Origin: Acidimicrobiales bacterium
GTDB lineage: Bacteria; Actinomycetota; Acidimicrobiia; Acidimicrobiales; JAHWLA01
DNA: 64,000 bases
NCBI GenBank assembly: GCA_035536915.1
Contig: DATLNE010000009.1
Span: 1 to 64,000, forward strand
Direction of reading: 5' to 3'
Position numbers and translations under genes: made by a program. Numbering within the stretch: the stretch's first letter is position 1; each line of letters starts with the position of its first letter. This document shows positions 21,992-62,523 of the stretch, piece after piece. Below the pieces are notes generated by a model. It saw only the letters and a program-made list of their open reading frames with translations, ran no database searches and was not told the origin of the DNA.

Positions 21992-22411
21992 CTAGCGCTT
22001 TGCTGCCTTCTTGGCCGGAGCCTTCTTGGCAGCAGTGGCCTTCTTGGCGGGCGCCTTCTTCGCAGGCGTTGCCTTCTTGGCCGGAGCCTTCTTGGCGGCA
22101 GTGGCCTTCTTGGCCGGTGCCTTCTTGGCCGGGGTGGCCTTCTTGGCGGGCGCCTTCTTCGCAGGCGTCGCCTTCTTGGCCGGAGCCTTCTTGGCCGGGG
22201 TGGCCTTCTTGGCCGGAGCCTTCTTGGCCGGGGTGGCCTTCTTGGCCGGCGCCTTCTTCGCAGGCGTTGCCTTCTTGGCGGGCGCCTTCTTGGCCGGAGC
22301 CTTCTTCGCAGGCGCGGCCTTCTTGGCCGGGCTCGCCTTCTTGGTGGCGCTCTTCGTGGCGGTCTTCTTGGCCGCCGCCGTGGTCTTCTTCGCAGGGGTT
22401 GCAGGGCTCAT
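21992..22411 (-). CDS. Free-standing histone H1-like lysine/alanine/proline-rich protein
   Basis: A 139-aa protein made almost wholly of the pentapeptide PAKKA and variants ([22 protein letters not shown]), ending AAKR; there is no globular domain. Such tails in actinobacterial HU (HupB) and eukaryotic H1 bind and condense DNA. ATG 22411 follows AAAGGCGGGC, and the gene lies 21 bp downstream of the HU gene, clearly in one unit. The repeats are also near-identical at DNA level, so length variation by slippage is likely. Role inferred as nucleoid compaction. Confidence 0.8.
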
Positions 22412-22432
22412 TAGGGAAGTGCCCGCCTTTCG

Positions 22433-22873
22433 CTAACGCTTCTTGGTGGACTTTGCGGCCTTCTTGGCCGGGGCCTTCTTTGCACTACCTGCTGCGGCGG
22501 CCTTCTTGGCCGGTGCTGCCTTCTTCGCCGGTGCGGCTTTCTTGGCCGGTGCGGCTTTCTTGGCCGGTGCTGCCTTCTTGGCAGCGGCCTTCTTGGCACC
22601 CGTGTTCAGTTCGCTCTTGAACGCGGCGGACGGCGCGAAGCGGACGCCCTTGGAGGCGGCGATCTTCACGGGCGCCCCGGTCTGGGGGTTGCGGCCCGTG
22701 CGAGCAGCTCGCGAGGTCGGGTTGAAGATCCCGAACCCGGAGATCGACACCTTGTTGCCTGCCTTCACGTCGCTCATCACTCCAGAGACGAACGCGTTGA
22801 CCGCGGCCTCCGCAGTACGACGATCGAGACCGGCTGCGTCTCTCACGTGCTCGACGAGTTCGGATTTGTTCAC
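22433..22873 (-). CDS. hupB: HU-family nucleoid protein with lysine-rich C-terminal tail
   Basis: A 146-aa DNA-binding protein. Residues 1-~90 are a complete HU fold ([31 protein letters not shown] with the DNA-intercalating arm). The rest is an [10 protein letters not shown]-type basic tail. GTG 22873 is preferred: GGAGGTGG lies 1 to 8 bases upstream and the N-terminus then matches HU. The earlier ATG 22885 would bury this ribosome-binding site. The tail is shorter than in mycobacterial HupB, and an additional tail-only protein follows. Confidence 0.93.
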
Positions 22874-22908
22874 CGCCACCTCCATGGCTCAGGGGAAGTA
22901 CCTTGCAA

Positions 22909-22937
22909 ATGAAAGAGGAATGGGCGCGCAAGGTCAA
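22909..22937 (-). promoter_or_regulatory. Promoter of the HU / H1-like operon
   Basis: Minus strand: -35 TTGACC (22932-22937), 17-bp spacer, -10 TTTCAT (22909-22914). Transcription would begin near 22902, leaving a short leader that carries the GGAGGTGG ribosome-binding site. Confidence 0.5.
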
Positions 22938-22944
22938 GCATTTC

Positions 22945-22961
22945 CCCTTGTGGCACAAGGG
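22945..22961. promoter_or_regulatory. Perfect palindrome upstream of HU and the 72-aa gene
   Basis: CCCTTGTG-G-CACAAGGG, 8-bp arms, followed by TTTTCG. It fits the pattern CCCTT-GT-N5-AAGGG also seen in the leaders of both DUF222 genes. Confidence 0.55.
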
Positions 22962-22987
22962 TTTTCGAAACGGCCCCTCGGAAAAGT

Positions 22988-23009
22988 CCTTGTGGGCAAA
23001 GGGGTTTTC
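22988..23009 (+). promoter_or_regulatory. Second CCTTGT-type box in front of the 72-aa gene
   Basis: CCTTGTGGGCAAAGG followed by GGTTTTC, an imperfect direct copy of the box at 22945-22967. It ends just before ATG 23013 and would cover its ribosome-binding region. Confidence 0.4.
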
Positions 23010-23012
23010 GGC

Positions 23013-23231
23013 ATGAGCCTTCTCGAAGACGGAACCTACGACGTGGTCGTGATCGACGCGAACGAAGACGACGACGGCGTCGTGCACGTCGAAGTCACCG
23101 TCGTCAGCGGCGTCGAGAAAGGCAACGTCGTTCGCCTCTCCGGACCACGCGGACGACGCGACGCGACCGACCTGCTCGGCCTTCCGGCGACGTTGGACGT
23201 GGTCGACGGCGCGCCGCGATTGCGCTTGTAG
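23013..23231 (+). CDS. Small acidic protein of unknown function
   Basis: A 72-aa protein starting at ATG 23013 (MSLLEDGTYDVVVIDAN). It is acidic in the first half (ANEDDDG) and basic in a short central RGRRD patch, with alternating hydrophobic residues that suggest a small beta-barrel. No family was recognised. It is divergent from the HU operon, and two palindromic boxes lie between them, so the two directions may be co-regulated. A TPP riboswitch starts ~40 bp downstream. Confidence 0.55.
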   Translation: MSLLEDGTYDVVVIDANEDDDGVVHVEVTVVSGVEKGNVVRLSGPRGRRDATDLLGLPATLDVVDGAPRLRL

Positions 23232-32680: not shown

Positions 32681-33823
32681 TCAGGCGGCGAGGCTGAGCG
32701 AGCCCGGTGGTCGGGTGCTTCTGGTGCGGCCCCTTGGGTGGGTGACCACCAAGGTGCCATCCGGTTCGAGCTTCTCGGACCAGCCCGGTTGGTGGCCCAG
32801 GTGGTGGTGCCTGCTGCACTTGAGCACCAGGTTGTCCAAGCTCGTCGTGCCGCCGTCATGCCAGGGCACCACATGGTGGGCATCGCACCACTGCGACGGG
32901 CGGTCGCAGCCTTCGAACCGGCAGTGCCGATCCCGCAGCACCAGCGCCGACCACAGCGGGGCCGGGATGGTGCGGGTCGACGTGCCGTAGTCGAGGATGG
33001 TGGAGCGACCGTCGGTCACCACTCGGTGGACGGCGGCGTCGCACGCCAGCGCCTGCACCGACGCACCGTCGAGCACGCCACCACCGACGAAGCTCCCGGC
33101 CTTGCCGGCACGCAGGGCTTCGTAGTCGACCACGACGTTGAGGTGGGGGCGGTGCCTGCCACCGCGCCGACCGCTCTGGTGGTCGAGGAAGAACCTGCAG
33201 ACGTCGACCAGTGCATCGGCCCTGCGCTGCGACGGCAGCACGTCGGGGTCGTCGACCACCGCCAACCGCAATGCGGTGGCCACCGTTTCGCCGCCCAGCG
33301 CGTCGAGTGATCCCATCAGTTCCCATTGGCCGTCCAACGTCTGTGACAGGTGGACGCCCCTCTCGAGCTTCGGCTCGATGTCGAGCATTGCTTTCCACTG
33401 CTGCATGGCCAACGCGGTGTCGGCCACCGACAGATCCATCAACGCCGGCACCACTGCACTTTCGTGCTCTGCGAACTCCGGCGTGGCGTTGCGCACGATC
33501 GCCTGCACCTGGCCGCCCGACAGCGTGCCTTCGAGCCACGCTCCCGCGGTCATCGGCAGCGAACGGAGTTTCTTTGCCGTGGAGGCAATGCTCTTCGCGC
33601 TGCTCGACGTCATGCCTGCGTGGTGTCGAAGCCAGGCCGTCATCGACGTCGCTCCGTCAAGCTCCCACAGACCCTCGGCGTCGAACTCGCCGATCACCCG
33701 CGTCACCTTGGCGTTGAGCAGGTCGACCAGCTTCAGCACCTCGGCCAAGGCGACGCCGTCGAGCGGAACGTCCGGTGCTTCGACGGCCTCGCGTAGCGCG
33801 GCGATCACGCGCTCATCGTACAC
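32681..33823 (-). CDS. DUF222 / HNH endonuclease family protein, copy 2
   Basis: 380 aa, the same length as the copy at 1679-2821. Over the first 60 residues only about five differ. The HNH region is intact (CRFEGC, DAHHVVPWHDGG, DNLVLKC, RHHH). GTG 33823 matches the start of copy 1. An open frame continues upstream to 33883 (FIYKGFSLAA), but it crosses the palindromic leader and is not open in copy 1, so it was not used. DNA similarity between the copies runs from just after the stop codon to the GGGAATT at the leader edge. Confidence 0.85.
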   Translation of the reverse strand: MYDERVIAALREAVEAPDVPLDGVALAEVLKLVDLLNAKVTRVIGEFDAEGLWELDGATSMTAWLRHHAGMTSSSAKSIASTAKKLRSLPMTAGAWLEGTLSGGQVQAIVRNATPEFAEHESAVVPALMDLSVADTALAMQQWKAMLDIEPKLERGVHLSQTLDGQWELMGSLDALGGETVATALRLAVVDDPDVLPSQRRADALVDVCRFFLDHQSGRRGGRHRPHLNVVVDYEALRAGKAGSFVGGGVLDGASVQALACDAAVHRVVTDGRSTILDYGTSTRTIPAPLWSALVLRDRHCRFEGCDRPSQWCDAHHVVPWHDGGTTSLDNLVLKCSRHHHLGHQPGWSEKLEPDGTLVVTHPRGRTRSTRPPGSLSLAA

Positions 33824-53872: not shown

Positions 53873-54640
53873 TCAAGGGTTCGTTCGCTTGCGGTTCACA
53901 AATGCGGCCACCGCGGCCCGCGACTCGGGCATGGCCACCAGCGCGTTGACCGTCCACGCCTCTTCGCTCAACGCCTCGTCGGCGGGCAGCCGGTGCAGCG
54001 AGTGCACGACGCGCTTGGCCGCCCGCACGGCCATGGGGGGCATGGCCGCGACGCGCCGGGCCATGGCTTCGGCCTCGGCCCACAGGTCGGCAGCAGGCAC
54101 CACCCGGTTCACCAGCCCGATGCGCTCGGCCTCGACGGCGTCGATGCGCTCGGCCAACAACGCCAGCTCCATGGCCCGGGTCGTGCCCACCACGGCGGGC
54201 ACGTGGTACGACGCGCCCATGTCGGGGATCACGCCGAGGCGCACGAAGTCGAGGCTGAAGCGGGCGTCGTCGGCCGCCAGCCGCAGGTCGCACGCCACCG
54301 CCACGCTGAGCCCCGCCCCCGCGCACACGCCCTGCACGGCGGCGATCACCGGCTGCGGCAACGCCCGCAGCTTGCGCACCACTTGATAGGCGCGCTCCAC
54401 GTGGGCCATGCGCTCGTAGGCATCGTCGAGGCGGAACACCGGGTGCTCGGCCAGATCCGCGCCCGCACAGAACGCACGCCCGGCGGCTCGCACCACCACC
54501 GCTGCTTCGTCGCCCACCTCGTCGATCGCACGGATGAAATCGTCGACCCAGCCGACGGTGAGGGCGTTGAGGCGCTCCGGCCGGTTCAAGGTGATGAAAG
54601 CCACGCCGTCGTCGACGTCGAGCGTCACGTCGTTGCTCAC
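53873..54640 (-). CDS. Enoyl-CoA hydratase/isomerase family protein
   Basis: A 255-aa crotonase-fold enzyme: FITLNRPERLNAL, AFCAGADLAEHP (CoA-binding and oxyanion hole), AVQGVCAGAGLSVAVACDLRLA and PDMGASYHVPAVVG. Asp occupies the position often held by the second catalytic Glu (GVIPDMGAS), so isomerase or other crotonase chemistry is possible. ATG 54640 overlaps the beta-propeller gene stop by 4 bp; it is last in the transporter operon, which suggests that the imported compound is handled as a CoA ester. Confidence 0.9.
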   Translation of the reverse strand: MSNDVTLDVDDGVAFITLNRPERLNALTVGWVDDFIRAIDEVGDEAAVVVRAAGRAFCAGADLAEHPVFRLDDAYERMAHVERAYQVVRKLRALPQPVIAAVQGVCAGAGLSVAVACDLRLAADDARFSLDFVRLGVIPDMGASYHVPAVVGTTRAMELALLAERIDAVEAERIGLVNRVVPAADLWAEAEAMARRVAAMPPMAVRAAKRVVHSLHRLPADEALSEEAWTVNALVAMPESRAAVAAFVNRKRTNP

Positions 54641-55920
54641 GACAACACGCCTCGGTCCTCCACCACGATGCGCACCACCCGACCGGCCGGCGGCCTCGTC
54701 GGAGCCTGCTCGGTCACCAACAGGTCCTCACCCCGGAAGGCCACGCCCACCGGCGTGTCGAACGGGGCGTCGGTGGCACCGGGGTACCGAGCCTGCTCGG
54801 CCCCGGCCTGGTCGAGCACGACGACGCGGCCCGCGCCGGCCAAGGCCACGTACAGCCGTCCCGATCGGCCGCCCGCGATGCCCACGGGCCGGTCGCCGGT
54901 GGCCGTGCTCGCCACCTTGGTGGGAGCGGCATCACCGAGGCGGTAGACGGTCCCGCCGCCTGCGTCGGTCACCGACTGGGCCACCGTCACCACCAAGCGC
55001 TCGGTGCTGTCGACGGTGATGCCGCTCAAGCCGTCGGGCGATACGAACTCGGGCGACTGATGGGCAAGGCGCACCTCCCCGCCTCCTGGCGCCACTCGCC
55101 ACACCAGCGCCTGGCCCCGGTCGGCCACGTACAGCGCGCCGTCGGCGCCGAACACGGCGGCTCGCGGTTCCGGCGCATTGTCGACAGGAGACAGCTCGCA
55201 GGGGCCGGCCAAGGCCACGGCGATGCACGGCGGAACGTCAGGGATGCCTGCGTACGACGCCACCGTCCCGAGCCCGACGTCGACGCGGAACACCGCGGCG
55301 GGCCGAGCGGCCAGCGCGTACACGACGTTGCCACCCGTGGCCCGGGGCAGGGCCAGCCCCCGCACGCCGAAGCCCGCCTCGATGGCCTCCACCGTGACCG
55401 AGGCCTCCAGCGCGCCGTCGCCGGTAAAGCGCATCACCACCGGCTTGGCGCCGCTGTTGTTGGTGGCCACGAACACCCGGCCGTCGTTGCCGACGGCGAT
55501 GCCCTCAGGCGCACCGGGCGCGGGCACCGAGGCAAAGGTGTCGACGGTGCCGACCGGCGGCCGCGGCGGCGAGAAGTCACCACCGCCGCCGCCGATATTG
55601 CCGCCGTCACCGGGGAACGACCCGCCGCCGAAGCTGCCGCCGTCCGGGAACGTCGGCGCCGGGTCGAACGGCAGGGAGAAGCCGTCGGGCGCCGACACGG
55701 GCGCGGGCGCCGGAGGGCCGGCACTGGTGGCCGGGGCCACGCTGCCCGTGGGGTCGACCAAGGGACGGGCCACTCCGGCCGGCCGCACCCGGTCGACCAA
55801 CGTCGGGGGGATGCCGCCGATGGCCGTGGCCAAGGCCACGAACAAGCCGATGGCCGCGGTGTAGACCTGCCCTTCGGTGAGGTCGAGCTTGCACCCCACC
55901 TTCTGCACGAGGGCGCTCAC
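54637..55920 (-). CDS. Membrane-anchored NHL/SMP-30-like beta-propeller protein
   Basis: A 427-aa protein. A single N-terminal helix (AAIGLFVALATAIGGI) is followed by a Pro/Gly-rich linker (FPDGGSFGGGSFPGDGG). The C-terminal ~290 residues have repeated blades such as PEGIAVGNDGRVFVATNN, AAVFGADGALYVADRG and VGIAGGRSGRLYVALAG, typical of NHL/gluconolactonase-like propellers facing outside. Overlaps of 4 bp on both sides place it firmly in the transport operon. A surface substrate-binding or lactonase role is inferred. Confidence 0.8.
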   Translation of the reverse strand: MSALVQKVGCKLDLTEGQVYTAAIGLFVALATAIGGIPPTLVDRVRPAGVARPLVDPTGSVAPATSAGPPAPAPVSAPDGFSLPFDPAPTFPDGGSFGGGSFPGDGGNIGGGGGDFSPPRPPVGTVDTFASVPAPGAPEGIAVGNDGRVFVATNNSGAKPVVMRFTGDGALEASVTVEAIEAGFGVRGLALPRATGGNVVYALAARPAAVFRVDVGLGTVASYAGIPDVPPCIAVALAGPCELSPVDNAPEPRAAVFGADGALYVADRGQALVWRVAPGGGEVRLAHQSPEFVSPDGLSGITVDSTERLVVTVAQSVTDAGGGTVYRLGDAAPTKVASTATGDRPVGIAGGRSGRLYVALAGAGRVVVLDQAGAEQARYPGATDAPFDTPVGVAFRGEDLLVTEQAPTRPPAGRVVRIVVEDRGVLS

Positions 55921-58808
55921 GACAACAGCTCCAACAACTCGGCTTTGCGCAACCGCGACGGCCCCTTAATGCCACGCGACCGCGCCACCTCGACCAGCTC
56001 TGTGCGGCTCAACCCGCCGAGCTGCGGAACAACGGCAGGCCGGCCGGTGTCGCTGCGCTTGATGGCCCGCTCGTCGGTGCCCAGGTAGGCGGCGATGACG
56101 GCGGGATCGGTGCGCACCACCTCCGGCACGCCCTCGGCGATGACCCTGCCTGCCGACATGCAGTACACGCGGTCCGACAGCGACATCACCAACGGCATGT
56201 CGTGTTCGATGATCACCAAGGTGGCGTCGAGCTCCTTGCGAATGCGTTCGATGAGGGGGCCGAAGGCCTCGGTCTCGCGCTGGGCCACGCCCGCCGTGGG
56301 CTCGTCGAGCAACAGCACGCGGGCGTCGACCGCCACCAGGCAGGCCAACTCGGCGATGCGGCGGGTGCCGGTCGACAGCGAGCCGATGACGGCATCGGCG
56401 TAACGGCCGAGCCCCATGAAGCCGATGAGCTCTTCGGCCTCGCGCCGCTTGCGGGCTTCGGCCGCGGTAGCAGGCGGCAGGGCCAGCGCCGAGGGCACCA
56501 GCTCGCTTCGCTCGCGGGCCTCCAGCGCCACCGACACGCACTCGCGCACGGTGAGCTCACCGAACAGGCGGGCGTCTTGGAACACCCTCCCGAGCCCCAG
56601 TCGCGAGCGCTCGTGGGCCGACAGGGCGGTGACGTCCTCCCCGAACATCTGCACTGTGCCCGCGGCGGTGGGTTGGAACCCGCTCATGACGTTCATCAGG
56701 GTCGACTTGCCCGCGCCGTTGGAGCCGATGAGCCCGAGCGTCTCCCCCGGGTAGGCCACCACCGTCACCCCGTCGAGGGCGGTCACGCCGCCGAAGCGCA
56801 CGGCGATGCCGGTGGCCGCCACCGCGGGCACGTCGAGCCGGATCTCGGGGCGGTTGCGGGTGGTGGCCACCGGCACGACCCGGCGGTCGACGGGCACGGG
56901 TGCCACCGCGGGTTCGCCCATGCGGCGCTCGGCCACCGAGAACACCAGGTCGCGCAACTTGTACACGACCTGCAGGAGCCCGCCCGGCAGGTACATCAAG
57001 AGGATGAGCAGGCCCGCGCCGCTGGTGAGCAGGCGCACCTCCTGGGTGTCGCCCAACAGCGCGGGAAGGCCGAGCACGTAGACGGCGCCGAGGACCGCAC
57101 CGGTGACGGAACCGAGCCCGCCGATGATGACCATGGCCACGACGATCAACGACTGCTCGGGGCCGAACAGGTCGGGGCCGAACTGCACGTGCGCCCCCGC
57201 CAACAAGGCGCCCGCCAAGGCGGCCAGGCCGCCGGAGATGGCGAACGCGGTGAGCTTGGTGCCCGACGGCGACACGGTGAGGGCGGCCGCGGCACGGTCG
57301 TTCTCCCGCACGGCGATGATGGCGCGCCCCACCCCACTGGTCCGCAGCCGGGAGATCACGAACACGCACGCAGCCAGCACCACCAAGCAGAACCAGTAGT
57401 AGGTCCGCTGCGACGACAGGTCGAAGAAGGCGATCTTGGCCCGGGGCAGGAAGACGTCCTGGTTGCCTCCGGTAAAGGCACCGTGCGGGAGGATGTAGCC
57501 CCGAGCCGCCACGGCGAAGGCCAAGGTCGTCACCGCCAACGAGAGACCCCGGATGCGCAGGGCGGGGCCGCCCACCGCCAAGGCGGCCAGCACGCCGATC
57601 ACCGCCGAGTACACGATCGAGTAGCTGAACGGCATGCCTCGGTCGACCAAGGCGAACGAGGTGAACGCGCCCAGCCCGACGAAGGCGAACTGCCCGAGCG
57701 AGAGCTGGCCGGCCCACCCGGTGAGCACGGTGATCGACAGGCCGATGATGGCGAAGATCGCCACCCGTGAGAACAGGAACTGCCGCGACGGCGCAGTGAC
57801 CACCAACGGCAACAAGGCGGCCACAGCGAAGGCGACGCCCGCCGAGATGTGCGGCAACCGTCGCACCCACCCGACCGACAGCAGGCGAGCCGGGATGGGC
57901 CGGCTGCGGGGCGTGAGCGAGAACGAGCCCTTCTCGTCGGTGACCAGGTCGCGGCCCCGGGTGAACACCAGGATGAGCACGACCACGAACAAGATGCCGT
58001 CGACGGTGCCGGGGCTGGGCACGTTCACGAACAGCAGCGCCTCGGCGATGCCCACGGCGATGCCGCCCGCCAAGGTCCACGGCAGCGACACCAGCCGCCC
58101 GCACAAGGCGGCGACCAAGGCCCGCAACAACAGGCTCGGCCCCAACGCCACCGAGGCAGTGCCGACGATCGTGCCCCGAATGGGGTTGATGAGCACGAAG
58201 GTGGCCGTCGACAACACGCCGGCCAGCACCCACACCACCGTCGACACCCGCTTCACGCTGACGCCCGCCAAGCGGGCCGCCTCGGCGTTCTCGGCCGAGG
58301 CCCGGATGGCCATGCCGTAGGGCGTGACGTTGAGGAACAGCGCCAACCCCGCGATCACCGCGGGCACGAAGGCCATCACCATGAAGTGCTCGCCCCGCAA
58401 CAGCACGCTGCCGACGTCGGCCACCCGGTCGAGCCCGGTGGGATAGCGCCGCGTGTTGTCGATGTCGGGCAGCACGGCGCTGGCGAAGAACAGGATCTGG
58501 GAGACGCCGATGGTGGCGACCAGCAGGATCAGCCGCGGTGCGTGGAACAGCCGTCGGATGATGGCCAGTTCCACCACGCCGCCCACCACAGCACCCACGG
58601 CCAGCACCACGGCGAAGGCCAGGAACCAGTTCCACCCCAGGTCGAGCACGAGCTTGGCCAGCACGGCAGCGCCGAAGGCGCCCATCTCGCCGTGGGCGAA
58701 GTTGATGACGCGGGTGGCCCGGTAGACGAGCACCAACCCGGCGGCCAGCACCGAGTAGGCGAGGCCGGTGAGCGCGCCGATGATGACGAGCTCGATGGAG
58801 AACGTCAT
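55917..58808 (-). CDS. LivH-LivM-LivG triple fusion of a branched-chain-type ABC importer, with Rho-N/SAP-like tail
   Basis: A 963-aa polypeptide. Residues ~1-290 are a LivH-type permease (VINFAHGEMGAFGA). Residues ~315-630 are a LivM-type permease (TVLTGWAGQLSLGQFAFVG). Residues ~665-910 are a LivG ATPase with Walker A GSNGAGKSTLM, actinobacterial-type signature LSTGTRRIAELA and Walker B VLLLDEPTAGVAQ. The last ~35 residues (LSRTELVEVARSRGIKG, SRLRKAELLELL) resemble a Rho-N/SAP helix module. The frame is continuous. Normally these are three genes. ATG 58808 overlaps the upstream MFS-LivF stop by 4 bp. Confidence 0.9.
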   Translation of the reverse strand: MTFSIELVIIGALTGLAYSVLAAGLVLVYRATRVINFAHGEMGAFGAAVLAKLVLDLGWNWFLAFAVVLAVGAVVGGVVELAIIRRLFHAPRLILLVATIGVSQILFFASAVLPDIDNTRRYPTGLDRVADVGSVLLRGEHFMVMAFVPAVIAGLALFLNVTPYGMAIRASAENAEAARLAGVSVKRVSTVVWVLAGVLSTATFVLINPIRGTIVGTASVALGPSLLLRALVAALCGRLVSLPWTLAGGIAVGIAEALLFVNVPSPGTVDGILFVVVLILVFTRGRDLVTDEKGSFSLTPRSRPIPARLLSVGWVRRLPHISAGVAFAVAALLPLVVTAPSRQFLFSRVAIFAIIGLSITVLTGWAGQLSLGQFAFVGLGAFTSFALVDRGMPFSYSIVYSAVIGVLAALAVGGPALRIRGLSLAVTTLAFAVAARGYILPHGAFTGGNQDVFLPRAKIAFFDLSSQRTYYWFCLVVLAACVFVISRLRTSGVGRAIIAVRENDRAAAALTVSPSGTKLTAFAISGGLAALAGALLAGAHVQFGPDLFGPEQSLIVVAMVIIGGLGSVTGAVLGAVYVLGLPALLGDTQEVRLLTSGAGLLILLMYLPGGLLQVVYKLRDLVFSVAERRMGEPAVAPVPVDRRVVPVATTRNRPEIRLDVPAVAATGIAVRFGGVTALDGVTVVAYPGETLGLIGSNGAGKSTLMNVMSGFQPTAAGTVQMFGEDVTALSAHERSRLGLGRVFQDARLFGELTVRECVSVALEARERSELVPSALALPPATAAEARKRREAEELIGFMGLGRYADAVIGSLSTGTRRIAELACLVAVDARVLLLDEPTAGVAQRETEAFGPLIERIRKELDATLVIIEHDMPLVMSLSDRVYCMSAGRVIAEGVPEVVRTDPAVIAAYLGTDERAIKRSDTGRPAVVPQLGGLSRTELVEVARSRGIKGPSRLRKAELLELLS

Positions 58809-61012
58809 CCGCCCGCCTCCGCCCCGAGGAAGACGGCCCGCACCAGGTCGTCGCGCTCGAGCAGTTCCTTGGCAGGCCCCTGAAAGCGGACGCGGCCCTT
58901 CTCCATGAACACGGCCCGGTCGGCGATCTCCAAGGCGATGTTCACCGACTGCTCGACGATGACCATCGTCAGGCCGCGCGCCTTTAGCGTCTCGACCACT
59001 TCGAGGATGTCCTGCACGACCACGGGCGCCAGCCCCAGCGACAACTCGTCGATGAGCAGGATCTCGGGATCGAGCAGCAATCCCTTGGCCAACGCCACCA
59101 TCTGCTGCTCCCCGCCCGACAGCTTCCCGGCGGGTTGGTCGAGGCGTTCCTGCAGCCGCGGGAACAGCGTCAGCACTTCGTCGAGCTTGGCGTCGAGCCG
59201 CTCACGGTCCCACACATAGGTGTGGGCGCCGACGGTCAGGTTCTCCCGCACGCTCAACGTGGGGAACACGGCCTTGCCGCCGGGCACCTGCACGATGCCG
59301 GCGCGCACCCGCGTCTCGGCGTCGGAGTAGGTGACGGTGCGGCCGTTGAGGCGGACGACGCCGCGGTCGGGAATGGCCAAGCCGCTGACGGCGCGCAGCA
59401 AGGTCGACTTGCCTGCGCCGTTGGTACCGAGCAGGGCCAGCACCTCGCCCTTCTTCACGTCGACCTCGACGTTGAACAGCACCTGGATAGGGCCGTAGCT
59501 GAAGTCGAGGTTGCGCACCTGCAGCACGGGAACTTCACCGCCCGCCTTCACCCGCTCGTGCTCGTCTTGTTCTTCCTTGAGCTCCTGCACCACCAACGAG
59601 ATGTCGCCGCGCACGAAGCGGGCGCCGTAGGCCATGACCGAGCCGCCGACCAAGAGGGCGGGCGGGATCATGATGGTCAGCGCCGTGCGCTCGCCGAAGG
59701 CGTCCGACATCTGGCCCGCGATGACGGCGCCGAAGAAGGCACCGATGAAGAAGATGTAGACGCCCGCCAGCGCGTAGCCCATGGCTCGCAGCCGGTACGG
59801 GATGACCGAAGCGATGATGGCCAGCAGCCCGCTGATGGCAGCCGACACGCCGAGCTGGGCGACGGCCAGCATGGGGATCAGCGTTGGCACGTTCGGCATG
59901 TACATGGCGACCACGCCGAAGACGAACAACGACAGCAGGCCGCTGACCGCAAGGATCGCCTTGGGTGGGCTCTGTCGGAAGAAGCGGTCGACCACGAAGC
60001 CGCCGACCGGGGCCCCGATCACGCCGCCGATGGCAGCCAGCGAGAACACGTAGCCGCGCTCGAGGGCGTCGAGTTGGTAGTGCTCTTCGAGGTAGAGGCT
60101 GAAGTAGATGGAGAAGGCGAAGAGGGCAAAGCCCATGACGCCGAGGCCGACGAGCACGTAGTAGAAGGTCTTGATCTTGCGCAGCCGCTCCCACGCCGCG
60201 CTCATGGCGGGCGGCTCGTGGGTGAGCTCGGGCTTGTCGTCGCCGAAGATGGCCTGCTGCTCGTTGGCGCCTCGTTGGGGCTCGCGCACGAACAGCACGA
60301 GCATCGACAGCACCAGGGTCGGCAGGGCCAGGATGATGAAGGCCCACCGCCAACCCTCGTCGCCGCCTGCCAACGCAGCCACCGCGCCCGCCACCGCCGG
60401 GCCGGCCAACAGCCCGATGGGGTTGGCCAGGTTGAACAAGGCGAAGACGCGCGCCCGCCCGGCGATCGGGTAGGCGTCGGCCAACACCGAGTTGAAGGCG
60501 GGCTGGCCGCCCTTGCCGAACCCGGTGCCGACGCGGGTGACGCCCAGCTGCCACGCCTCGCGCACCAGGCCGGTGGCGAACATGAACACGCCCAGTACGG
60601 CCGACACGCCCGAGATCACGCGCACCCGGCGCATGCGGTCGGCCAGGAAGCCGATGGGGATGAAGGCCAGCACCACCAGCCCGCCGCCCAAGGTGGCCAG
60701 CACGCCGAGGGTGGTGTCGCTCACCCCCAGCGTCTCTTGGATGTTGGGGGCCAGCACCGCCATGGCCGCCCGGTCGAACTCGTCGAACAGGTTGAGCAGG
60801 AACAGCATCCCGATGGTCGCCACCCCGCCCGAGCGCAACACCTCGCGGGTGGGCATGGCGTCGTCGCCCACGCCAGGGAGGAGGTCGTCGGGCAGGAGGA
60901 CGGCGTCGGCGTCGCGCTCGTCCTGCTCGTCCTGGCGCCGCGCCTCTTCTTCGAGGACGGCGGCAGTCAACGCCGCCGGGTCCGGCGAGGTGTCGTCGAG
61001 CGTGGTGGCCAT
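58805..61012 (-). CDS. MFS transporter fused to a LivF-type ABC ATPase
   Basis: A 735-aa fusion. After an acidic N-terminus, residues ~60-480 form a 12-helix major facilitator domain (NLFDEFDRAAMAVLAPNI, IPIGFLADRMRRVR, GTGFGKGGQPAFNSVLADAY). Residues ~500-735 are a LivF ATPase with Walker A GTNGAGKSTLL, signature LSGGEQQMVALAKG and Walker B ILLIDELSLGLAP, where Leu replaces the usual Pro of DEPS. The linker (LKEEQDEHERVKAGGE) is charged and helical, and the frame is unbroken. ATG 61012 overlaps the stop of the binding-protein gene by one base. LivF here completes the ABC importer encoded downstream. Confidence 0.92.
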   Translation of the reverse strand: MATTLDDTSPDPAALTAAVLEEEARRQDEQDERDADAVLLPDDLLPGVGDDAMPTREVLRSGGVATIGMLFLLNLFDEFDRAAMAVLAPNIQETLGVSDTTLGVLATLGGGLVVLAFIPIGFLADRMRRVRVISGVSAVLGVFMFATGLVREAWQLGVTRVGTGFGKGGQPAFNSVLADAYPIAGRARVFALFNLANPIGLLAGPAVAGAVAALAGGDEGWRWAFIILALPTLVLSMLVLFVREPQRGANEQQAIFGDDKPELTHEPPAMSAAWERLRKIKTFYYVLVGLGVMGFALFAFSIYFSLYLEEHYQLDALERGYVFSLAAIGGVIGAPVGGFVVDRFFRQSPPKAILAVSGLLSLFVFGVVAMYMPNVPTLIPMLAVAQLGVSAAISGLLAIIASVIPYRLRAMGYALAGVYIFFIGAFFGAVIAGQMSDAFGERTALTIMIPPALLVGGSVMAYGARFVRGDISLVVQELKEEQDEHERVKAGGEVPVLQVRNLDFSYGPIQVLFNVEVDVKKGEVLALLGTNGAGKSTLLRAVSGLAIPDRGVVRLNGRTVTYSDAETRVRAGIVQVPGGKAVFPTLSVRENLTVGAHTYVWDRERLDAKLDEVLTLFPRLQERLDQPAGKLSGGEQQMVALAKGLLLDPEILLIDELSLGLAPVVVQDILEVVETLKARGLTMVIVEQSVNIALEIADRAVFMEKGRVRFQGPAKELLERDDLVRAVFLGAEAGG

Positions 61013-62523
61013 CAGTACTGGGCGGGCCGGAAAGCGGTCAGGGGCACCACGCACTTGCAGTCGGCCTGCCAGCGGGTGGTGCGAATCTGGTCGGCACCGT
61101 CGAAGCGGTTGGGGCCGAAGGCCATCCCGCCGAAACCCGACACCCCGATGCGGCCCAGGCTGCGCATGCCCCGGCTGAAGCCCGCCGGGCTCAGGTCGGC
61201 GCCCGACGCCAGAGCACCTCGCGACACCAGGATCCAGAAGGCGCACTCCCGGGAGAAGTTGACCTCCTCCTCACGCGGCACCTGGCGACCGAGCGCCTTC
61301 GACGCTTCCTCCCTGCACTGCTTGTCGATGGCGGGCTCCGGGAAGTTGCCCCGGTGCTCGGCCAATCGGGTGATGGTGAAGGCCAGGTTGCCGTTGTACG
61401 ACGCCGGCATGTTGGAGTAGTAGAAGTCGCTGTTGGCGCCGTTCCAGTCGGAGTTGAAGTAGGGCGGCGTGTAGCCCTGGCTGGTGGCGTCCTGCACGAA
61501 CTGGGTGAAGACCAGTGCGTGCGACATGTTCACGATGACGTCGGACTTTGTGCGGTGCTGCTGCACCTCGACGGGCACCTGGCCCGCGGCGGTGCCGAAG
61601 TCGGCGTTGAAGACCGAGACGTGGCTGACGTTGTAGCCGCGGTTCTTCAGCTCGCCCTCCAGCCGCCGCACGATCGACGCGGGGCCGCTGCGCAGGTCGA
61701 ACAGCAGGCCCACCCGCTTGCCCTTGAGCGAACCCAGCCGGTCGACTTCGTGCGCCAGGTTGGCCACGGTGCGGTCGGAGCCCATGAAGGTGGTGAACAG
61801 CAGGCCCTTGGAGCGGGGGTAGTACTCCTGCGGCACGCCCGAACTGCCCGCAGCGATGAGGGGCGTGTTGTGCTCTTCCGTGAAGCACAGCATGGGTGGG
61901 CCGATGAAGCCGCCACTGGCCACGGCGACCGCGACCTTGCGCTGCTCGGTGAGGAAGAGACACGCCTGGCGCATGCTCTCCTCGCTCAGCGGGTCGTAGG
62001 TGACGAAGTGGAGCTCGAAGGGTCGGCCGTTGATGCCGCCCGAGGCGTTGAGGGTGTCGACCCAGTGCTGCCACACCTTCTTCGACTCCTCCACGTCGCC
62101 GGTGGCAGGGAAGCCGAGGGCGGTGACGTTGCCGAGGTCGAGCAGCAGCACGCCGAGCTTGATGGCGGGGCCGCTCGCCCTGCCGCCCGGGCCGCTGCCC
62201 GCGCCGCCGGGACCGGTGCCGCCGGCACCCGCGCCGCCTGCACCCGATCCGCCCAAGCCGGGCAGGCTCCCGTCGACCCCGGCCGTGCCTGCGGCACCGG
62301 AGGCGTCGGCACCCCCGGTCGCCGCATCACCCCCGGTGCCGTCCGCCGTTGCCCCCACGCCGTTGTCGAGGAAGGGTTCGTTGCCGGTGCCGCCCGCCGA
62401 GATCACCTGGGCGCCGTCGGCGAAGATCAGCGGCACGCCGACGCCGGCGGTGAAGATCCCCATGACCACGCCGAGGATCAGGGAATACGTCTGAAGGCGG
62501 CTGCGTGGACTGAAGCGGGTCAT
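61012..62523 (-). CDS. Membrane-tethered branched-chain-type substrate-binding protein (LivJ-like)
   Basis: A 503-aa protein. The N-terminal helix (YSLILGVVMGIFTAGVGVPL) acts as signal anchor, followed by ~75 residues of Gly/Ala-rich linker. The rest is a periplasmic-binding-protein type I domain: IKLGVLLLDLGNV, TLNASGGINGRPFELHFVTYDP, SSGVPQEYYPRSKGLLFTTF and GKRVGLLFDL. ATG 62523 follows GGGAGGGATCTC. It is first gene of the five-gene operon and would deliver substrate to the fused LivHMG/LivF complex. Ligand unknown; the Cys pairs near the C-terminus (CKC) are unusual. Confidence 0.88.
   Translation of the reverse strand: MTRFSPRSRLQTYSLILGVVMGIFTAGVGVPLIFADGAQVISAGGTGNEPFLDNGVGATADGTGGDAATGGADASGAAGTAGVDGSLPGLGGSGAGGAGAGGTGPGGAGSGPGGRASGPAIKLGVLLLDLGNVTALGFPATGDVEESKKVWQHWVDTLNASGGINGRPFELHFVTYDPLSEESMRQACLFLTEQRKVAVAVASGGFIGPPMLCFTEEHNTPLIAAGSSGVPQEYYPRSKGLLFTTFMGSDRTVANLAHEVDRLGSLKGKRVGLLFDLRSGPASIVRRLEGELKNRGYNVSHVSVFNADFGTAAGQVPVEVQQHRTKSDVIVNMSHALVFTQFVQDATSQGYTPPYFNSDWNGANSDFYYSNMPASYNGNLAFTITRLAEHRGNFPEPAIDKQCREEASKALGRQVPREEEVNFSRECAFWILVSRGALASGADLSPAGFSRGMRSLGRIGVSGFGGMAFGPNRFDGADQIRTTRWQADCKCVVPLTAFRPAQY

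Follow-up and report, generated by a model that had tools for sequence, protein, structure and literature searches.

A spinster-like major facilitator fused to the LivF ATPase of Liv-type importers is a large conserved family in Actinomycetota

The window, the whole 64,000-nt stretch analysed here (contig DATLNE010000009.1 of an Acidimicrobiales bacterium), encodes a 735-aa protein whose N-terminal half is a complete spinster-like major facilitator superfamily (MFS) transporter and whose C-terminal half is the LivF ATPase of the surrounding ABC cassette. Such MFS-LivF fusions are a large conserved family in Actinomycetota. Their components are known, and the combination is a new form of Liv importer. 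The explanation that we tentatively place first is a composite Liv importer with a tethered auxiliary spinster-like MFS transporter, in which MFS-LivF would be a constitutive subunit. The features of the cassette are as follows.

61012-62523, minus strand: binding protein (Peripla_BP_6); its stop overlaps the MFS-LivF start (TGATG)
58805-61012, minus strand: MFS-LivF fusion gene, 735 aa, ATG start (open frame, Pfam MFS_1 and ABC_tran, AlphaFold2)
60824-61012, minus strand: N-terminal cytoplasmic segment, residues 1-63, with a helix at 12-37 (model secondary structure)
60866-60895, minus strand: LPDDLLPGVG, residues 40-49, recurring in the N-termini of window-like members among those listed
59618-60823, minus strand: spinster-like MFS half, residues 64-465, 12 transmembrane helices (profile, alignment, model)
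60626-60652, minus strand: motif A of the MFS half, GFLADRMRR
60512-60514, minus strand: K167, which aligns with Glu129, the proton switch of HnSpns (alignment to 6e8j, column counts)
59528-59617, minus strand: junction, residues 466-495, with invariant D470; the TM12 helix runs on to 489
58817-59527, minus strand: LivF-type ABC ATPase, residues 496-732 (Pfam, NCBIfam, motifs)
59402-59428, minus strand: Walker A of the LivF half, GTNGAGKST
59105-59122, minus strand: signature of the LivF half, LSGGEQ
59039-59053, minus strand: Walker B of the LivF half, IDELS
55917-58808, minus strand: LivH-LivM-LivG (LivHMG) fusion, 963 aa; its start overlaps the MFS-LivF stop (ATGA)
54637-55920, minus strand: co-transcribed gene overlapping LivHMG; its product has NHL/SMP-30 repeats and, by prediction, a membrane anchor at the N-terminus
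53873-54640, minus strand: enoyl-CoA hydratase family gene; overlaps the gene at 54637-55920 and is the last of the overlapping set

A sequence-only reading of this DNA had given the coordinates of the fusion gene correctly and left its strand unstated, which is minus: the frame starts with ATG at 61012 and stops at 58805-58807, its translation runs for 735 aa without an internal stop, and a plus-strand reading of 58805-61012 contains stops. Third-position GC is high over the entire frame, as in coding DNA. The same reading had described one unbroken polypeptide holding a complete 12-helix MFS and a LivF ATPase with the motifs of both halves, lying between the binding-protein gene and the LivHMG fusion, and had proposed a Pfam search and a taxonomic survey. 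All of this was borne out. Pfam found MFS_1 at residues 70-365 (3.5e-44) followed by ABC_tran at residues 513-656 (5.4e-29), and identified the two neighbouring genes; the AlphaFold2 model (pLDDT 93.5, pTM 0.90) has 12 transmembrane helix blocks and then a full ABC ATPase fold; motif A is present in the MFS half, and Walker A, signature and Walker B in the LivF half.

The binding protein matched Peripla_BP_6 just above the cut-off (6.7e-08), and LivHMG matched BPD_transp_2 in two stretches (4.5e-58), corresponding to LivH and LivM, plus ABC_tran. Because start/stop overlaps run from the binding-protein gene through to the enoyl-CoA hydratase gene, the five genes look translationally coupled. 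Gram-positive binding proteins are usually lipoproteins; this one lacks a Cys near its N-terminus, where a membrane helix is apparent, and may instead be anchored in the membrane. The C-terminus of LivHMG (window 55917-56030) carries a Rho_N-type (SAP-like) domain, LSRTELVEVARSRGIKGPSRLRKAELLELLS, with a match just under the Pfam cut-off (4.2e-05), which is unusual in an ABC transporter subunit. The 54637-55920 product, possibly an accessory anchored protein of the importer system, shares its N-terminal segment (WTEGQVYTIAIGL), an apparent membrane anchor, with its counterpart at L046:4941-5741 (LTEGQVYTAAIGL); their C-terminal parts differ, and the NHL repeats are found in the window protein. 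Elsewhere in the window, two called genes of 380 aa each (1679-2821 and 32681-33823 (-)) have near-identical N-termini (VYDEQVIAALREAVEAPDVPLDG...) and form a repeated family, and the Ala/Phe-rich repeats called on the plus strand at 22011-23231 are probably an antisense reading of a minus-strand gene for a Lys/Ala-rich histone-like protein.

The genetic context of the cassettes is variable, and no substrate emerges from it. Pfam identified enoyl-CoA hydratase, amidohydrolase and beta-propeller (NHL) genes around the window cassette. L046, its closest relative with context, has genes for one adenosine deaminase and for three nucleoside hydrolases nearby, which hints that this cassette may take up nucleosides. 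The neighbours of the other cassettes were varied and apparently unrelated; the substrate probably differs between copies.

The window genome encodes eight full-length MFS-LivF fusions, the seven paralogues having 36-39% identity and no stop. In the window's order, 125 of 298 sampled genomes (about 40%) had a match at E<=1e-90; no stop was found in the fusions among the matches listed, and the matching genomes include single-contig ones (G613, G551, G440, G518 and G637, among others). A survey of the phylum gave matches at E<=1e-60 in 17 of 199 genomes, some of them to LivF only, and a survey with the MFS profile gave strong matches in 26 of 397 genomes, some of them stand-alone MFS proteins. 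Evidence across phyla came from plasmid records and a genome-contig scan. In the scan, the best 80 loci were nearly all from Actinomycetota and the named records with the fusion were mostly Acidimicrobiia; the isolates Yinghuangia seranimata (L086), Kribbella pittospori (L124) and Nonomuraea sediminis (L132) also carry it. Among 1041 plasmid records with a LivF match, one match covered at least 80% of the query, that of Embleya sp. NBC_00888, which carries the fusion on a 5.7-Mb replicon listed as complete. The survey thus revealed a large family with two reproducible layouts rather than a single curiosity, and chance or an assembly artefact was ruled out as its source by the seven paralogues and more than 100 further fusions.

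The layouts were defined by profile scans of about 120 loci, with LivH and LivM profiles included. In type 1, to which the window belongs, MFS-LivF lies beside LivH-LivM-LivG (50 distinct LivF domains, a few with a separate LivG), and most loci have an adjacent binding-protein gene. In type 2, LivH-LivM lies beside a single MFS-LivF-LivG chain of about 1000 aa (43 LivF domains). All MFS-LivF genes on long enough contigs adjoin LivH-LivM; the fusions with no such neighbour are on truncated contigs. A Liv importer contains single copies of LivF, LivG, LivH and LivM, so these layouts point to one MFS per complex; the type 2 chain, in which one MFS goes with a single LivF and a single LivG, makes a ratio of about one MFS per importer likely. 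At ten loci (L140-L146, L150, L153 and L155) the whole ABC importer core is one LivH-LivM-LivF-LivG chain with no MFS. At L263 and L270, two complete units of binding protein, MFS-LivF and LivHMG stand side by side, which suggests local duplication.

The best NCBIfam matches of the LivF- and LivG-type ATPases were LivF/UrtE and LivG/UrtD, below the equivalog cut-offs for LivF, LivG and UrtE. Walker A and the catalytic D655-E656 are invariant across 92 fused proteins. The DELS form of Walker B, in place of DEPS, had been mentioned in passing by the sequence-only reading; the variant is real, and it proved to be a trait of the LivF lineage rather than of the fusion, being present in 91 of 93 fused and in 35 of 41 non-fused LivF domains, the latter a set partly biased by the use of DELSLGL as a search pattern. 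DELS was therefore rejected as a mark of MFS fusion, since most non-fused LivF domains of the lineage have it. A midpoint-rooted tree of 134 LivF domains placed the ordinary LivF proteins of the same genome outside the group that holds all MFS-fused LivF domains. MFS-free cassettes are nested in this group: L043/L168 inside type 2, which was well supported, and further L044/L151/L134, L127 and the LivH-M-F-G set. This topology suggests an old fusion from which the MFS may have been lost later in some cassettes; repeated gain of the MFS could also account for it. The dN/dS of the MFS half was 0.03-0.07 in the closest pairs, within the range of LivH, LivM and LivF, so the MFS half is not in decay. 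Mean identity across 776 pairs is 44% for the MFS half, 47% for LivH and 49% for LivM, which thus diverge at about the same pace, against 66% for the slower LivF.

In the window model, residues 441-489 form one helix, so that TM12 extends towards the ATPase, whose first strand begins at residue 497. The spacing from the invariant D470 to Y506 is 35-38 residues in 83 of 92 proteins. TM12 again leads straight into LivF in the model of a type 2 chain (L036; pLDDT 87.3, pTM 0.71). Because TM12 is modelled as one helix reaching to the ATPase, these predictions argue for an MFS docked against LivF at a fixed geometry rather than held on a floppy tether.

A fold search with the whole window model was dominated by matches to the ATPase half and was uninformative for the MFS half; in a comparison of the MFS profile with solved structures, the best match was the bacterial spinster HnSpns (6e8j, 7e-49), followed by DgoT and SPNS1/SPNS2. 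Alignment of the window protein with HnSpns paired D80 with D41, R81 with R42, R160 with R122, D125 with D87, D179 with D142, and K167 with Glu129. Work on HnSpns identifies Glu129 as the protonation switch on the intracellular side and places the Asp87-Arg91-Asp142 relay in structural motif A (PMC9440201); both characterised bacterial Spns proteins have the switch Glu (PMC9440201, PMC13192786). Among the fused proteins, motif A is well kept, with D125 in 77 of 79 T1 and T2 proteins, R129 in all 92 and D179 in 90 of 92. The TM1 Asp (D80) and TM4 Arg (R160) of the window protein, two residues of the spinster coupling network, are kept in most T2 and many T1 proteins. The switch position holds Glu in 3 of 92 fused proteins and Lys (K167) in the window; we therefore class the MFS half as spinster-like and not as a proton-coupled spinster. 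In the T1b subclade all 13 proteins have lost the motif A Asp, and nearly all lack the TM1 Asp and the TM4 Arg as well; some copies may therefore not be ordinary transporters. Stand-alone MFS relatives in fusion-bearing genomes keep the motif A Asp and also lack the switch Glu, and its absence as a consequence of fusion is thus not supported. In 58 window-like members, with residues placed by the helix order of the window model, the invariant charges are concentrated towards the cytoplasmic side of the fold and the cavity positions vary; most of these charges are also present in HnSpns.

The sequence-only reading had offered two roles for the MFS part, an accessory export or coupling channel held to the importer or a transporter energised or gated by the ATPase, and either may apply. 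Taken together, residue patterns and models favour a real, gated MFS transporter held at a fixed geometry to the ATPase. According to our leading explanation, which we hold with some reserve, MFS-LivF would belong, as a constitutive subunit, to a HAAT-type (LivFGHM) ABC importer. Its MFS half would alternate access through its own gating motifs and serve, next to the LivHM channel, as a tethered auxiliary transporter, moving the same solute, a counter-solute or a product. The position of the MFS, and perhaps its gating, would be tied to the ATP cycle via the TM12-LivF helix. The driving force of the MFS is probably not standard spinster proton coupling, since the switch Glu is almost always absent. 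Counting against this explanation, the MFS-free cassettes nested in the LivF lineage imply that the importer can work without an MFS.

A bolder reading, which we regard as rather unlikely, is that closure of LivF and LivG moves TM12 as a lever and rocks the MFS, one ATP cycle thereby powering both LivHM and the MFS. The rigid modelled link with its fixed spacing would suit such a lever, the proton-switch Glu is missing in 89 of 92 proteins, and the type 2 polypeptide carries both ATPases together with the MFS. However, TM12 is a peripheral rather than a cavity-lining helix in MFS folds, the nested cassettes run the importer without an MFS, and the stand-alone relatives are no better provided with the switch Glu. 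We know of no MFS that is driven by closure of an ABC ATPase.

It is about as unlikely as the lever that the MFS half has ceased to transport and instead serves as a scaffold or regulator, anchoring LivF, sensing a solute or positioning the importer. The cytoplasmic bias of the invariant charges, the variable cavity and the loss of gating and coupling residues in T1b would fit this role; however, very few T1 and T2 members have lost the motif A relay, HnSpns has most of the invariant charges too, the MFS half is under permease-like purifying selection, and LivF is already docked by LivHM. We consider it improbable that two independent activities were joined just so as to be expressed equally and are linked neither functionally nor mechanically: the Liv genes of this lineage do fuse in various ways (HM-G, HM, F-G and HM-F-G), but the MFS always occurs with this LivF lineage and always adjoins LivHM, and the length of the junction is constrained. 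Least credible by far is an assembly or frame error, or internal initiation yielding LivF alone, for although several in-frame GTG codons in the linker of the window gene would permit some internal initiation, that linker has no ATG and no clear ribosome-binding site, and more than 100 in-frame fusions occur across genomes, several of them single-contig, and in isolates, with no stop among the matches listed.

Primary transporters, driven by ATP, are classified apart from secondary ones, driven by gradients. MFS-LivF joins the two at a fixed geometry and likely at a fixed stoichiometry, and the family offers a direct test of gating or powering of an MFS fold by an ABC ATPase. A composite class in which one ABC ATPase pair powers LivHM and the MFS through a rigid TM12-ATPase helix is a doubtful proposition; if ATP does drive the MFS half, this would be a new class of transporter and the first case of ATP hydrolysis directly driving or gating an MFS. 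Annotations will probably name just one half of MFS-LivF, calling it an MFS or an ABC protein, and this would mislead metabolic reconstructions of uncultured but abundant actinobacteria.

The sequence-only reading knew of no characterised transporter of this kind, and our search of the literature available as open full text, a scope that takes in few subscription journals, agreed with it in returning no description of an MFS-LivF fusion. The HAAT/Liv importers (TC 3.A.1.4, including the urea system UrtABCDE) likewise combine LivH, LivM, LivF- and LivG-type ATPases and a Peripla_BP_6 protein in one operon; here, in contrast, LivF bears an N-terminal 12-helix MFS, LivH, LivM and LivG are fused, and the scores fall under the LivF, LivG and UrtE equivalog cut-offs. 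The window protein shares the motif A relay, the TM1 DR and the TM4 RxxxG with spinster MFS transporters (TC 2.A.1.49; HnSpns, SPNS1, SPNS2 and mycobacterial Spns), but differs from them in the Lys at the switch position, where few family members have Glu, and in its fusion to an ABC ATPase. In ECF importers, too, ABC-type ATPases serve a membrane protein other than a classical ABC permease; however, the S-components are small and unrelated to MFS, whereas a classical LivHM permease is also present here. Finally, the sensor kinase-MFS fusion family TC 2.A.1.34 (named in PMC3924187) resembles MFS-LivF in that an MFS is fused to an ATP-using cytoplasmic domain; its partner is a sensor kinase, whereas that of the proteins described here is the ATPase subunit of an ABC importer.
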